A stretch of DNA of 64,000 bases, taken from the NCBI GenBank assembly GCA_027490195.1, contig JAIXYN010000025.1, positions 1 to 64,000 on the forward strand, given 5' to 3'. The stretch comes from Verrucomicrobiaceae bacterium (GTDB lineage: Bacteria > Verrucomicrobiota > Verrucomicrobiia > Verrucomicrobiales > Verrucomicrobiaceae). Position 1 is the first letter of the stretch. Every line of letters begins with the position of its first letter. The notes below the pieces were generated by a model. That model searched no databases. It was not told the origin of the DNA and worked only from the letters and a program-made list of their open reading frames with translations. Of this stretch, positions 27,385 through 32,139 are shown one piece after another. Made by a program: the position numbers and the translations under genes.

Positions 27385-28482
27385 ATGTACCGGATTCTCA
27401 GTCTCTTCTGCGCGCTCACCTGCTCCGCCTTCGCCGGAGATCTTCAGCTCACTCTCCCACCCGTCGTGTATGCCACGCCGGACGTGCCGATGAGCATCTA
27501 CCACGACAACATTGTGCTGACGGAGACTCCTGAGGCCTACCGCTTTGAGTTCACCTGCAAGCTGGGCAAAAACGAAGAACGCCGCTGGACACTGACACCG
27601 AGTGATGCCGATGTGGGTGATCACCCGATTGCCATCACCGTCAAAGACGCTGGCGGCAAAGTGCTGGAGCAGGGGCAGACGACATTGCACATCTCCCCTC
27701 GCAAATCGATTTCCTCCAAGCCGCTGAGCCTGCTCATCGTGGGGGACAGCCTCACGCATGCGAGCTTTTACCCGAATGAAATCGCCCGTCTGCTAGCTCT
27801 GCCGGGCAATCCCAAGGCCACGCTGCTAGGCACTCATAAACCCGCCTCTGCTCAGCCCGGTGTCGCGCATGAAGGCTATGGCGGCTGGAAGTGGTCCGAC
27901 TTCCTCATCAAATTCGCGCCTGAAGTTCCCGGCGTGGCTGCAGGTCCGCTCGCTCGCAAAGCCACCAGCCCCTTCATCTTCACGAAGGAAGGCATTAAAG
28001 ACCCCCAATTCGACCTTGCCATGTACTTCAAAGAGCATTGCGACAATCAGCCGCCCGATGTCGTCACCTTCCTCCTCGGCATCAATGACTGCTTCGGCGC
28101 CGATCCCAACAACCCGGATGCCAAAATCAATGAGGTGCTCGACAACGCCGACAAACTCCTCGCTGCATTCCACAAAGCCGCGCCGAATGCCAAGCTCGCG
28201 GTCGGTCTCACCACGCCGCCCAACGCCCGTCAGGAAGGGTTCACTGCCAACTACAAGGACAAGTATCCGCGCTGGGGCTGGAAGCGCATCCAGCACCGCA
28301 TCGTGCAGCTCATGCTCAAGCGTCTCTCCAACCGCGAGAAGGACGGCATCTTCATTGTCCCCACGGAGCTCAATCTTGATCCTGTTGATGGCTATCCGAA
28401 CAACAATGGCGTGCATCCCAATCCCGTGGGCTACGCCCAGATCGGCGCGAGCTTCTACTCGTGGATGAAATCGAAGCTGTGA
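27385..28482 (+). CDS. Secreted SGNH/GDSL hydrolase
   Basis: This 365-residue exported esterase-like protein has a signal peptide (MYRILSLFCALTCSAFAG) and an Ig-like beta segment before the SGNH domain. Block I is LLIVGDSLTHASFY (Ser). Block II may be the Gly in HEGYGGW. Block III LGINDCFGA has the Asn. Block V NNNGVHPNPVGYAQIG has His and is preceded by an acidic residue. Substrates of such enzymes are acetylated or esterified sugars; none is provable here. The start is ATG 27385; an in-frame GTG at 27376 overlaps the preceding stop. It converges with the enolase-superfamily gene. Confidence 0.88.
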   Translation: MYRILSLFCALTCSAFAGDLQLTLPPVVYATPDVPMSIYHDNIVLTETPEAYRFEFTCKLGKNEERRWTLTPSDADVGDHPIAITVKDAGGKVLEQGQTTLHISPRKSISSKPLSLLIVGDSLTHASFYPNEIARLLALPGNPKATLLGTHKPASAQPGVAHEGYGGWKWSDFLIKFAPEVPGVAAGPLARKATSPFIFTKEGIKDPQFDLAMYFKEHCDNQPPDVVTFLLGINDCFGADPNNPDAKINEVLDNADKLLAAFHKAAPNAKLAVGLTTPPNARQEGFTANYKDKYPRWGWKRIQHRIVQLMLKRLSNREKDGIFIVPTELNLDPVDGYPNNNGVHPNPVGYAQIGASFYSWMKSKL

Positions 28483-28500: not shown

Positions 28501-29727
28501 CTACTTCGCCACACTCTTCCTCCACCCGTTCACTCCTTCACGGAACAGCTCGTCCTTCAACTTGGTCCCCAAGCCTGTTCCTGTGGGCAACTGCGCCTTC
28601 CCGTTCACGATGACGGGCAGCGTATCGACCAGCTTGTCGTAGAACGAGCGGATGTGCGCCCGGACCGTCTCCTGAAACACGACATTGGCCGATGACGCCG
28701 CGAGATGCAGGCCGCTGAACAGCGTGAGCGGGCCGGTGCAGTCGTGAATCGTCGCGGGGACGTTGAAGGTCTGCGCCATGTCGATGACGCGGCGGGTTTC
28801 GCTAATGCCGCCGTTCCAGGTGGGATCGACCATGCAGTAGTCGCAGGCCTGCGCTTGCAGCACGCTCAAATATTCTTTGCGACCGAGCAGCATCTCACTC
28901 GCCGCGATGGGCAGACCGCTCCGGCGACGGAAATCGGCCAGCGTGGCTGCGTTATCGACGCGTAGCACGTCTTCCAGCCAGAGCGGTTTGATCTCGCGCA
29001 AAGCTTCGGCGATGCGTTCCGCCGCCGGGAGCTGGAAAAACGCGTGCCCTTCGATGGCGATGTCCATTTTCATGCCCACACGCTCGCGAATTTCACGCAG
29101 GGGTTTCATGCCTTCCTCGACATCGGCCCAGGAGATGTGCAGACCGCCGTTGCGATGTGCCGCGCGATCAAACGGCCAGAGCTTCATCGCGGTGATGCCT
29201 TCAGCGAGCAATTCTTCAGCGAGGTCACCGGCGGCAAAATGAGAGGCCCAGTTGTCTTGCAACGGACCTTTGCTGCCGATGTCGCCATAGCCCGGCCAGC
29301 CCGGATGACGTGGAGCTTCCGTGGCACCTGCCACCGCGCCGTAACTCGGGCCGCCGCTCGTATTATAAACGGGAATCGCATCGCGCACCGGCCCCCCGAG
29401 CAGGCGATACACCGGTTGGTTGCAGGCCTGCCCAAGAATGTCCCACAGCGCGAGATCAATGGCCGACAGCGCGCGCATTTCCGCGCCCGGATGGCCAAAC
29501 GGCGTGCAGCGCTCATAGATGAAACGCCAGTGCGCTTCAATCGCCAGCGCATCGGCTCCGAGCAGGCGCTCTGCCATCCAATCGTGAATCAACGCGGCGA
29601 TGGCATGCGGTGTGTAATACGTTTCGCCGCAGCCGATGAAGCCGTCCTCCGTGTGAATGCGGACCAGCAGCAGATTCGGCATGATGCCGGACGGAATGGC
29701 GGTTTCGATGGCGGTGATGCGTGACAT
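28501..29727 (-). CDS. Mandelate racemase/muconate-lactonizing (enolase superfamily) enzyme, probable sugar-acid dehydratase
   Basis: This 408-residue enolase-superfamily protein has the capping domain (residues 1-130) with IGCGETYYTPHA, then a TIM barrel. The base Lys region is EGITAMKLWPFD, metal ligands are in MKMDIAIEGH, LEDVLRVD and AASEMLLG, and a catalytic His/Asp is in IHDCTGPLT. Members dehydrate or racemise sugar acids. It is the third gene of a unit uxuA > Nramp-like > this gene with 1- and 8-bp gaps. That context argues for an aldonate or uronate-derived substrate. The start is ATG 29727 (MSRITAIETAI). Confidence 0.88.
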   Translation of the reverse strand: MSRITAIETAIPSGIMPNLLLVRIHTEDGFIGCGETYYTPHAIAALIHDWMAERLLGADALAIEAHWRFIYERCTPFGHPGAEMRALSAIDLALWDILGQACNQPVYRLLGGPVRDAIPVYNTSGGPSYGAVAGATEAPRHPGWPGYGDIGSKGPLQDNWASHFAAGDLAEELLAEGITAMKLWPFDRAAHRNGGLHISWADVEEGMKPLREIRERVGMKMDIAIEGHAFFQLPAAERIAEALREIKPLWLEDVLRVDNAATLADFRRRSGLPIAASEMLLGRKEYLSVLQAQACDYCMVDPTWNGGISETRRVIDMAQTFNVPATIHDCTGPLTLFSGLHLAASSANVVFQETVRAHIRSFYDKLVDTLPVIVNGKAQLPTGTGLGTKLKDELFREGVNGWRKSVAK

Positions 29728-29735
29728 GATGTGGA

Positions 29736-31172
29736 TCAGTGGGAGAAAATCTGGCGGAACATGGCGAATGAAATGAAGCCGTAAAACAAGGCGCACAAGA
29801 TGAGTGCGATCTTGCGCCACAGGGGCGGGCGCAGTTCACGCGGCAGCAGCGTGGTGTTGAGGCGCAGGATTTGCAGTGCGGAGAAGGCCGTGATGGGTGC
29901 GGCGGTGGCGCCGAGAATCATGAGCAGCAGTTTGGCATCGCCAAGGAATGCGCCGAAGCACGCGACCAACGTGAAGCCGAGCAGCAGCAGTCCGTAGAGC
30001 CGCCCCACCGGCATTTTCTTCGGCACCGCACCGCCCGCCCATGCCATGTCTGCCACCACGCGGGCCAGCACATCCACATTCGTCAGCGTCGTCGAAAACA
30101 GAATCCAGAAGCCGTTCATGAGGCCGAGAATCCAGAAGCCCACCCATAGCTTGCGCATTTCCGCTGCTTGAAACACGCCCGCCGCAACGCCGGTGACCTG
30201 CATGCCGGGCTGAAACAATGACGAGGCCAGATTAACCATCAAAAACATGCCCACGATGCATCCCAGCATCCACAGGCCGGATTGATCAATGATCGCGTAA
30301 CGCCACCAGTCGCGCCAGCGCTTCAAATTTTCCACGGTGATGGGAAACACGCTGCCGACGGGGGCCAGTGTCTGCTCCGTGCTCCACACGCCACCCATGT
30401 TGCCCGCTTTGGCAGCCATGCCGAAGCCCTTGTCACGAAACCAGTTGGCGATGGCAAGATTGCCAATGCCGCCGCTGCCTGCGAGCGCTGCAAACACTGC
30501 CAGCATCACGAAATCGACCTTCTCAGGAATCACTCCGAAGGAGAAGAAGCCTGTCAGCGTGCTGGTCCAGTCCTTGAGCGGCACAAAGGTGAAGTTCACC
30601 CACAGCAGGAAGCCGAAGATGAAGATGATCATCATCCACGACAGCCGCTCCAGCAGTCGCTCGACCTTTTTGCCTGATGCGAGCACCACGGCTGAGATCA
30701 CTACGAGTGCCACCGTGATCCACGTCACCATTGATGCATCGCCATCCTTCGGCGCACGCCCTTGCAGCATTGCAAACGTCACGCCCGCGCATCCCGCCGC
30801 CGCCGCAGGCATGCCGAGCTGCGCAAAGCCTGCGAGCGCATAAAACACGCCCCATATCCGCGATCCCGGCCGCATCCGCATGAAGCCCGTGAGCACCGGC
30901 TCGCCCGTGTAGAGCGTGTAGCGCACCGCTTCGAGATTTAGCAGCGATTGCAGCACAAAGGCCAGCGTCGCGATCCACAGTACACTGCGTCCGTGCTGCA
31001 CCACAAACAACGGCCCCGCGATCCACTCGCCCATCCCAATGGCCCCCACGAGCAGGATTGCCCCCGGCCCGATGGTGCGCAGCGCATTGCGCCAACTGAA
31101 AGGCAGCGGCGCGGGAAGATCGTCGGTCTTCCAAGGAGGAAGACAGCCGTGATTTGGGTTGGATGGCTTCAT
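29736..31172 (-). CDS. Nramp-family membrane transporter lacking the DPGN motif
   Basis: This polytopic inner-membrane protein of 478 residues has about eleven hydrophobic spans and an Nramp/APC-type fold. The first helix reads IGPGAILLVGAIGMGEW. At the site where Nramp metal carriers have DPGN it has GMGE (residues 46-49), and the TM6 MPH motif is also not visible; GSGGIGNLAIANWF fills that area. Metal transport is therefore doubtful. It starts 1 bp after the uxuA stop and ends 8 bp before the enolase-superfamily gene, which suggests it carries the sugar acid they use. The start is the first ATG. Confidence 0.85.
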   Translation of the reverse strand: MKPSNPNHGCLPPWKTDDLPAPLPFSWRNALRTIGPGAILLVGAIGMGEWIAGPLFVVQHGRSVLWIATLAFVLQSLLNLEAVRYTLYTGEPVLTGFMRMRPGSRIWGVFYALAGFAQLGMPAAAAGCAGVTFAMLQGRAPKDGDASMVTWITVALVVISAVVLASGKKVERLLERLSWMMIIFIFGFLLWVNFTFVPLKDWTSTLTGFFSFGVIPEKVDFVMLAVFAALAGSGGIGNLAIANWFRDKGFGMAAKAGNMGGVWSTEQTLAPVGSVFPITVENLKRWRDWWRYAIIDQSGLWMLGCIVGMFLMVNLASSLFQPGMQVTGVAAGVFQAAEMRKLWVGFWILGLMNGFWILFSTTLTNVDVLARVVADMAWAGGAVPKKMPVGRLYGLLLLGFTLVACFGAFLGDAKLLLMILGATAAPITAFSALQILRLNTTLLPRELRPPLWRKIALILCALFYGFISFAMFRQIFSH

Positions 31173-31173
31173 G

Positions 31174-32139
31174 TCAGGATGTGGGCTGGCCGGCTTGAAC
31201 GCTTTGAATCAGCCCGCGCATGTAGCCATACGCGAACAAACGGCCCAGCATGGTGTAGCCGGGCTCGCCCTCTTCTTCGCCGTCGAGCTGCGGCACATGA
31301 TCTGGACGCATGGGACCGGTGAAGCCGATTTCGTGATAGGCGCGCATGGCGGCAACCATGTCGGTGGGGCCGTTGTCATGAAACGTCTCGGCAAAACATT
31401 CTGCATTGCCACGCACGTCGCGAAAATGAACGTAGCGGATGTGCGGGCCAAGCCGGCGGATGGCGGAGGGAATATCGGCACCCATCTCCGCAAAGGTGCC
31501 CTGGCAGAAACAGATCGCATTGTGCCGGCTTGGTGAGAGGTGCATGAGCCGCTCGAAGTTTTCGACGCTGTTCATGATGCGCGCCTTGCCGGCGAATGCG
31601 GCCAGCGGCGGGTCATCGGGATGCATGACCAACGTCACGCCGTGTTTTTCTGCCGCAGGGAGCAACTCGGCGAGCATGCGCTCCAAGTTCGTCCACAGGG
31701 CGTCTGCCGTGATGGTTTCGCTGCCAGCGTGAATCGCCGCCGAATTCAAAGACATGGCTTGTTGCGCTTCTTTGAGATCAAATGCCGTCACCAGCGCTCC
31801 GCCGCGCTCCTTGGCATTCAGCTTGGTTCGCACCCAGTCGGTGCCAGCCATGAAGTTGTAGCAGAGCAGCGGGATCTCCGCCTCACTCATGTGTTCAAGC
31901 AGCCGTTTCATCGCGGACATGTCACTGCCATCGTCCTTTCCGAGCTTGAGCTTCTCGATGGGCAGATAGCCTTCGATGATCCCCAGCTTCATGCCGTGGC
32001 GCTCGATTTGCGCTTGGGTTTGCAGCAGCGGCTCCAATTCCGACCCTGGATATCGCACGGTGATCTCTTCGACGCCGCACTGGGCCGCTAGGGTCAAATG
32101 GTGATCGTTGAGCGGTGTGAGGACAGAGGCGAGGCGCAT
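31174..32139 (-). CDS. Mannonate dehydratase family protein (UxuA-like)
   Basis: This 321-residue TIM-barrel protein is of the UxuA family, which dehydrates D-mannonate to 2-keto-3-deoxygluconate. Typical parts include LLCYNFMAGTDWVRT, LVMHPDDPPLAAFAG, ICFCQGTFAEMG (metal Cys), YVHFRDVRG (His/Asp/Arg), GFTGPMRPDHVPQL and GYTMLGRLFAYGYMRGL. It is shorter than E. coli UxuA (394) but like the short bacterial form. It leads the three-gene unit with the Nramp-like carrier and enolase-superfamily enzyme. The start is ATG 32139; upstream sequence overlaps the divergent ceramidase-like gene's leader. Confidence 0.88.
   Translation of the reverse strand: MRLASVLTPLNDHHLTLAAQCGVEEITVRYPGSELEPLLQTQAQIERHGMKLGIIEGYLPIEKLKLGKDDGSDMSAMKRLLEHMSEAEIPLLCYNFMAGTDWVRTKLNAKERGGALVTAFDLKEAQQAMSLNSAAIHAGSETITADALWTNLERMLAELLPAAEKHGVTLVMHPDDPPLAAFAGKARIMNSVENFERLMHLSPSRHNAICFCQGTFAEMGADIPSAIRRLGPHIRYVHFRDVRGNAECFAETFHDNGPTDMVAAMRAYHEIGFTGPMRPDHVPQLDGEEEGEPGYTMLGRLFAYGYMRGLIQSVQAGQPTS

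Follow-up and report, generated by a model that had tools for sequence, protein, structure and literature searches.

A UxuA-linked, Nramp-related carrier without the DPGN metal motif in a Verrucomicrobiaceae bacterium: a predicted importer of sugar acids

The stretch of DNA analysed here (the window) comprises positions 1 to 64,000 of contig JAIXYN010000025.1 from the Verrucomicrobiaceae bacterium assembly GCA_027490195.1, the close relatives of which are Prosthecobacter-type Verrucomicrobia. Its minus strand harbors three closely spaced genes, and these are the subject of this study. The first (31174-32139) encodes a UxuA-like protein of 321 residues, assigned to the D-mannonate dehydratase family by PF03786, PRK03906 and an alignment with 3ban. 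The second (29736-31172) encodes an Nramp-related carrier of 478 residues, recognized by NF037982 and by its predicted fold, and the third (28501-29727) a 408-residue protein of the enolase superfamily (mandelate racemase subgroup, acid-sugar-dehydratase-like) with the domains PF13378 and PF02746. An earlier interpretation made from the letters of this stretch (the sequence-only reading) had described the genes as one unit with gaps of 1 and 8 bp, which is borne out by the window coordinates: position 31173 separates the UxuA-like gene from the carrier gene and positions 29728-29735 separate the carrier gene from the enolase gene. Both flanks of the trio are occupied by plus-strand genes. The start of a ceramidase-like gene is near that of the UxuA-like gene, and beyond the enolase gene a GDSL-type gene ends at 28482.

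The UxuA-like protein matched PF03786 with 223.6 bits, above the cut-off, and just exceeded the cut-off of NCBIfam PRK03906 (194 bits vs 191), and with 123.5 bits it fell below the cut-off of 199.55 of TIGR00695, the isofunctional uxuA equivalog model. Its closest solved chain is 3ban, a mannonate dehydratase, with which the HPDDPP, Cys, HxR and RPDH segments could be aligned. The His, Cys, His and Asp segments, which we take to be the metal ligands, are kept across seven aligned bacterial proteins; UxuA enzymes require a divalent metal. As the protein is a short form and misses the TIGR00695 cut-off, D-mannonate as its substrate is a guess. The enolase-superfamily protein was matched by PF13378 (168 bits) and PF02746 (67 bits), and the solved chains closest to it (2pod, 4dx3 and 3dip) carry generic names only. 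Among the NCBIfam matches listed it passed no isofunctional cut-off, the best being galactonate dehydratase with 189 bits vs 311. The suggestion of the sequence-only reading that both enzymes dehydrate sugar acids was therefore retained as a class name and not for an exact substrate, since the isofunctional models were missed: "sugar-acid dehydratase" appears to be a fair name for both proteins, with substrates predicted at class level.

The carrier gave no Pfam match up to an E value of 1, PF01566 included. Up to the same limit its sole NCBIfam match was NF037982 (Nramp_1, "Nramp family divalent metal transporter"; 156.5 bits, cut-off 50), while PRK00701 and TIGR01197 were not matched. E. coli MntH is also taken by NF037982 (319 bits), and because this model accepts MntH as well as carriers devoid of the metal motifs, its name cannot separate metal carriers from their relatives. 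Used as an equivalog, the name over-annotates the Nramp-related group. Several genes above its cut-off were seen in single Verrucomicrobia genomes (7 in G396, 4 in G128; G and L numbers are our handles for genomes and loci), which seems more than metal uptake alone needs.

A single-sequence search with the carrier returned only chance-level matches to transhydrogenase and plexin chains, and a profile of 12 close carriers gave no match to PDB sequences up to E 1. Profile A5 of the wider family, which consists of 30 rows with E. coli MntH being one of them, detected DraNramp at E 7e-47. Since only this profile reached the Nramps, the carrier is tied to them by A5, by NF037982 and by the fold match. 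For the latter, an AlphaFold model was built with the 12 close sequences; it is of low confidence, with a predicted local distance difference test value (pLDDT) of 62 and a predicted template modelling score (pTM) of 0.69. The best VIA Z scores were obtained with human NRAMP1 (31.4; 9f6p) and with DraNramp and DMT1 (31.1; 6c3i, 9f6n). The integrative model of YcsG (9a52) scored 29.3 and EleNRMT 27, and the first match outside the Nramps was SLC7A10 with 26.7. Nramps also occupied the top rows in Foldseek. By prediction, the carrier has the Nramp (LeuT) fold.

In the LeuT fold, substrate is bound at the breaks of transmembrane helices 1 and 6 (TM1 and TM6). In the alignment with E. coli MntH, D34-P-G-N37 of MntH corresponds to G46-M47-G48-E49 of the carrier (codons at 31026-31037, minus strand) and M209-P-H211 to I236-G237-N238 (codons at 30459-30467, minus strand; both were placed manually, counting from the start codon at 31172). 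Because aligned residues occupy both sites, the loss of DPGN and MPH is not an alignment gap, and the sequence-only reading was right in stating that GMGE replaces DPGN and that MPH is absent from TM6. Among 75 aligned rows, which include the window and count one gene twice (L040 and L127), the four-residue TM1 site holds G in 72, mostly a small residue at the second position, G in 70, and E in 66 or D in 9, so that an acidic residue is found at the last DPGN position in 75/75 and the site mostly reads G-x-G-E/D. Judged by this alignment, the carrier is no isolated case; it belongs to a large set of Nramp-related proteins with this TM1 motif. When compared with AdiC/CadB profiles by hhalign, the GxG of the carrier (G46-M-G48) fell in register with the GSG of AdiC, at a probability of 0.3% that is not significant by itself; the fold match makes an equivalence of GxG and GSG plausible. 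One metagenome-assembled genome (MAG; L038:8001-9291 / G020:C447) carries a version of the gene without ~40 residues including the TM1 GMGE, the longer remainder being 98% identical. This gap may stem from faulty assembly or be a genuine deletion, in which case it would abolish the binding site proposed below.

Subsequently, the occurrence of the carrier was compared with that of its partners. In a genus-level set the carrier was found at 88-100% identity in 11 genomes. UxuA (PF03786, E 1e-10 or better) was present in 11/11 of these and in 0/15 genus genomes without the carrier (Fisher p 1.3e-7, which like the p value below takes no account of shared ancestry), the 15 having been picked mostly for completeness and the genomes left out including at least seven of lower completeness or higher contamination. 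In 294 Planctomycetota genomes, the carrier was detected in 7 (~54% identity) and UxuA in 11, all 7 included (p 9e-12), at thresholds of at least 50% identity for the carrier and at least 60% for UxuA that were both chosen after the lists had been seen. Each of the 18 carrier genomes searched (18/18) has one UxuA gene.

UxuA and carrier genes are spaced by 1 to <95 bp in 7/11 genus genomes, and they also adjoin each other in the Verrucomicrobiales locus L040 and the Planctomycetota loci L136 and L137 (with ~0.5 kb between them in L137). As this layout recurs in all of these, the adjacency exceeds chance. Counted over 19 carrier genomes (the 11 of the genus, G495/L040 and 7 Planctomycetota), UxuA is adjacent to the carrier in 10, within ~10 kb in 3 (G003, G014, G015) and elsewhere in 6; the carrier does not occur mostly away from uxuA, a situation which the sequence-only reading had named as speaking against it. 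The comparison with other genomes, which it had also proposed, shows the carrier-UxuA tie in both the genus and the Planctomycetota. One extra MAG outside the 19-genome tally has UxuA and carrier on contig L043 and carrier and enolase on contig L039. Carrier and UxuA form a tight pair, to which the enolase is more loosely attached: enolase orthologues (52-62% identity) accompany the carrier in 7/7 Planctomycetota carrier genomes, and the enolase is also found in 5/15 genus genomes that have neither carrier nor UxuA.

The three genes are reshuffled as one module. UxuA is paired with the carrier in the window, L040, L136 and L137, and the carrier with the enolase in the window. UxuA and enolase form pairs in G519 (co-directional, <200 bp) and G752 (convergent) and lie ~2 kb apart in G733, G676 and G722. 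The enolase gene adjoins an M81/MlrC protein gene in L164-L166, L206 and L207, with IclR and RraA-like genes beside the pair in all five, and in L040 an M81 protein is encoded beside the carrier. In L138 and L139 the carrier follows cupin and Ldh_2 genes, with an SMP-30/gluconolactonase-like gene further up; L142 kept the cupin and a piece of Ldh_2, and L140 and L141 have none of the cupin, Ldh_2 and SMP-30 genes.

The trio could also consist of mere neighbours, held together by shared inheritance or transfer of a genomic block and not by a common pathway. Within one genus carrier, UxuA and flanking genes are indeed conserved together, and related genomes are not independent. This explanation is nevertheless very improbable, as UxuA and carrier were retained together although unlinked (in 5/7 Planctomycetota carrier genomes, and in G036, which has them on different contigs) and as the order in which the partners have been re-joined varies across two phyla.

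Some loci deviate from these layouts. In one genome (L041:1748-2083 = L134:8581-8916) a truncated second carrier copy, comprising the first ~102 residues at 83% identity, stands directly after UxuA, and the full carrier and enolase lie ~6 kb beyond; uxuA and the carrier gene were apparently separated by a duplication and insertion of which this copy is a remnant. At L037:1972-7985 UxuA and carrier are separated by two inserted genes that, by eye, probably encode a large protein kinase and a sigma factor of the ECF type. In three Planctomycetota (L164:7141-8838, L165:7018-8712, L166:10557-12251) a gene that by eye is formate-tetrahydrofolate ligase-like separates the enolase gene from UxuA.

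In a quick 63-row tree that includes E. coli MntH, the window carrier grouped with L040, L136 and L137 (support 83) and next with five Planctomycetota carriers without linked UxuA (100), and this group is nested in a clade of 25 rows (support 100). Across the wider family, several carriers adjoin genes of organic-acid metabolism. A UxaA/GarD-type dehydratase is encoded beside the carrier in L122 (39 bp) and L157, and in L124 three genes off on the opposite strand. The L150 and L151 carriers stand beside genes for D-2-hydroxyacid, Ldh_2 and 2-oxoacid dehydrogenases, the L145 carrier beside a hydroxyacid dehydrogenase gene only, and another enolase-superfamily gene lies 36 bp from the carrier in L112. 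Of 17 plasmid carrier loci that were opened, one was without annotation. On the Rubrobacter plasmid (L157:497-13299) a single organic-acid cluster combines two distinct Nramp-related carriers with UxaA, PdxA, Lut-type lactate genes, a four-carbon acid-sugar kinase and a gene with a lactate-racemase domain. On the Streptomyces albus plasmid (L177) genes for an acid-sugar kinase, an aldolase and a dehydrogenase lie upstream of the carrier, and on the Mesobacillus plasmid the carrier comes after CoA-transferase and thiolase genes. On a plasmid of the haloarchaeon Halocatena salina a mannonate dehydratase gene is divergent from the carrier, with genes for a dihydrodipicolinate synthase (DHDPS)-type aldolase, an aldehyde dehydrogenase and an IclR regulator nearby. 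Since the carriers of Halocatena and of the window fall into different clades, the tie to UxuA recurs outside the window clade. Other plasmids count against an organic-acid setting: no telling gene was present within 4 kb of the Haematobacter and Peribacillus carriers, and the Skermanella carriers adjoin an SLC13 permease.

The neighbours of 58 carriers at 56 loci were compared with proteins at least 5.5 kb away, using UxuA, enolase, UxaA, Ldh_2, 2-hydroxyacid dehydrogenase and Lut as queries, which were chosen after the near set had been seen. The probed families made up 16/148 near and 0/146 far proteins in an edited set (p 2e-5), and 8/147 near and 0/146 far proteins in the automatic list after removal of self-matches and window orthologues (p 0.007). 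Genes for this comparison came from a crude open-reading-frame caller, which missed UxuA of L031 and L040 and the cupin of L138. The automatic list excludes proteins of <140 or >1000 residues and 11 redundant loci, and 146/158 far proteins were used, the far-set Pfam table holding at least 25 families. For the edited set seven proteins were added manually (UxuA of L031 and L040, three L138 genes, one of L150 and the L157 regulator), some open reading frames of plasmid loci were replaced by annotated genes and a few were dropped.

These neighbourhoods bear on the alternative that the carrier imports a divalent metal (Mn2+ or Mg2+) and supplies it to the metal-dependent dehydratases of its own operon. 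Such a function agrees with the label of NF037982, with the report of YcsG as a Mn2+ importer in the accessible text of PMC10448178, with the transport of Mg2+ and Mn2+ by EleNRMT (PMC8806188) and with the siderophore-type, MgtC or ArsR genes that lie near a small number of related carriers. A PF01566 search of the window's own genome gave no match, so that a metal role would not be redundant there, an observation that is neutral by itself. We consider metal import improbable, because D, N and M of the DxxN/AxxM site are replaced by G, E and I and the DxxG/TxxA-T site of the NRMTs is absent as well; because the label, which MntH also receives, does not discriminate; because the 15 searched carrier-less genus genomes also lack UxuA, and a metal supplier is not expected to track one catabolic enzyme; and because several relatives adjoin hydroxy-acid and sugar-acid enzymes.

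Another explanation is that the carrier moves a different organic acid or derivative, such as a hydroxy-acid, a lactone, a cyclic amide (e.g. 5-oxoproline) or an amino-acid-like compound, and that the UxuA-like and enolase proteins act on that compound and not on a hexonate. A precedent exists in PxpT and 5-oxoproline, as far as the accessible text of PMC13274462 goes. The M81/MlrC genes beside the carrier in L040 and, together with RraA-like and IclR genes, beside the enolase in the five loci above point the same way, as do the missed TIGR00695 cut-off of the UxuA-like protein and the missed isofunctional cut-offs of the enolase. We regard this as unlikely, though clearly less so than metal import. 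UxuA recurs with carriers of two clades, those of the window and of Halocatena, which points to the substrate of UxuA itself, and the M81 proteins of L040 and L164 share only 27% identity. Furthermore, 17/73 genomes with NF037982 matches have pxpA (PF03746), and none of the 15 pxpA loci fetched (0/15) contained a carrier within the 6-13 kb covered.

Taken together, a predicted Nramp fold without the metal motif and the very strong co-occurrence with UxuA make organic-acid import the best reading. We consider it probable that the trio is a catabolic unit for an external sugar acid, with the middle, Nramp-related carrier as the predicted importer. Its sequence and partners suggest that the carrier most likely imports a sugar acid or hydroxy acid and works with the UxuA-like and often with the enolase dehydratase. 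D-mannonate or another hexonate as the exact substrate is a tentative choice that we hold at somewhat below even chances. The sequence-only reading had called a metal role doubtful and had suggested a sugar-acid importer with an Nramp fold; predicted fold, motif loss and the UxuA tie support it, and import itself keeps the rank of a prediction.

Mechanistically, the protein would be a LeuT-fold secondary carrier that imports an aldonate- or hexuronate-type acid. At the broken TM1 helix, where G-M-G-E replaces the DPGN metal site, the glycine loop would hold the substrate carboxylate through backbone amides as GSG does in APC amino-acid carriers, and the conserved acidic residue (E49) may serve hydroxyl binding or proton coupling. 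By this analogy we infer that the place of the metal ligands is taken by a carboxylate loop, G46-M-G48, and by the E49 that follows it. Once inside the cell, the acid would be dehydrated by the UxuA-like and enolase-superfamily enzymes in the direction of a 2-keto-3-deoxy acid.

Several observations weigh against sugar-acid import. The shared ancestry that the co-occurrence p values leave aside is one of them, and so are the insignificant hhalign score with AdiC/CadB and the missing PF01566 match in the window's own genome. Pairing of UxuA with a metal importer is conceivable, UxuA enzymes being metal-dependent. A close UxuA also occurs without a close carrier in four Planctomycetota genomes (G519, G647, G752, G761); G647, G752 and G761 have more distant Nramp-related carriers elsewhere in the genome. 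By the automatic neighbour list, 42/56 sampled carrier loci have none of the probed enzyme families next door. A match to the UxaC (glucuronate isomerase) family was found in 33/34 genomes, with or without the carrier, so that mannonate could also arise inside the cell; in the 7 Planctomycetota carrier genomes these matches are weak (34-51 bits). On the Roseomonas plasmid (L175) a carrier whose TM1 reads GSGE follows siderophore-type dihydroxybenzoate dehydrogenase and non-ribosomal peptide synthetase (NRPS) genes at a distance of 137 bp, on the Ketogulonicigenium plasmid an MgtC/SapB gene is found two genes upstream of the carrier, and on the Haloarcula plasmid a gene for an ArsR-family regulator adjoins it. 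The L175 arrangement hints at a metal or catecholate link in one branch. Finally, the Nramp-related YcsG (MntG) of B. subtilis has itself been described as a Mn2+ importer, again in the accessible part of PMC10448178.

In a broader version of the organic-acid hypothesis, the G-x-G-E/D carriers as a whole would be an organic-anion branch with an APC-like carboxylate loop, the DPGN/MPH site would have evolved inside an organic-acid carrier, and the window clade would be the D-mannonate/hexonate carrier. The second step would follow from a preprint in which the canonical Nramps are surrounded by a paraphyletic assemblage of Nramp-related proteins. We regard this broader version as doubtful; the metal-type neighbours on three plasmids lower its odds slightly but leave those for the window clade unchanged.

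Nramps are textbook metal carriers, and the NCBI model gives the name "divalent metal transporter" to their relatives too. Should one clade turn out to carry sugar acids, many genes with this label would be misnamed, organic-acid importers would gain a new class and the cargo of the ancestors of metal Nramps would become directly testable; the tie to UxuA points to the substrate class for a first trial. What is new here is that one clade of a known, mostly uncharacterized group is tied to UxuA, with PxpT as the one experimental precedent for an organic substrate.

Accessible text of a January 2026 preprint calls all but two Nramp-related groups entirely uncharacterized (PMC12873925), and that of a companion preprint regards them as likely metal transporters of mostly unknown specificity (PMC13060092). 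Cellier treats Nramp-related proteins as an outgroup in the parts available of PMC10606218 and PMC9606685. Among the open-licence papers listed, none appeared to link an Nramp relative to sugar acids, and the sole organic-acid link found was that to 5-oxoproline. A paper on a xylonate operon of Salmonella (PMC12445098) was considered and set aside: in its accessible text the transporter is an MFS protein and Nramp refers to the mouse genotype.

Compared with canonical Nramp/SLC11 proteins (MntH, DMT1, DraNramp), the window carrier is alike in predicted fold but differs in having no DPGN, no MPH and no match to PF01566, PRK00701 or TIGR01197, and in having sugar-acid enzymes as gene partners. 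EleNRMT, which is likewise Nramp-related and similar in fold, has the site DxxG-TxxA/T (PMC8806188), whereas the carrier has GxxE and SxxI. With the APC amino-acid carriers (AdiC, CadB, SLC7) it shares the LeuT fold and a TM1 G-x-G in the register of GSG, although a significant sequence relation is lacking (hhalign probability 0.3%); backbone amides of the helix-breaking TM1 GSG hold the substrate carboxylate in AdiC and LAT1, as stated in the accessible text of PMC5877779. The lack of DPGN/MPH and the glycine-rich TM1 place the carrier close to the Nramp-related groups, that is the G-motif groups of PMC12873925 and the orphan outgroup of PMC10606218, as far as the available parts of both describe them, and the proteins taken by NF037982. 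The difference is that one clade is tied here to UxuA. Functional evidence on Nramp-related proteins is split, as YcsG is claimed for Mn2+ and its relative PxpT for 5-oxoproline; for YcsG itself both cargoes have been put forward. PxpT of C. glutamicum, of the NRAMP family and 50% identical to YcsG, is required for growth on 5-oxoproline according to the accessible text of PMC13274462. The window unit differs in lacking a pxpABC partner, and its carrier has GMGE where a PxpT-like protein encoded on a Lactiplantibacillus plasmid (L199, identified by synteny only) has GPGF in TM1; L199 falls outside the G-x-G-E/D set. In its setting the window carrier is similar to PxpT, an NRAMP carrier needed for the use of an organic acid and encoded together with catabolic enzymes.

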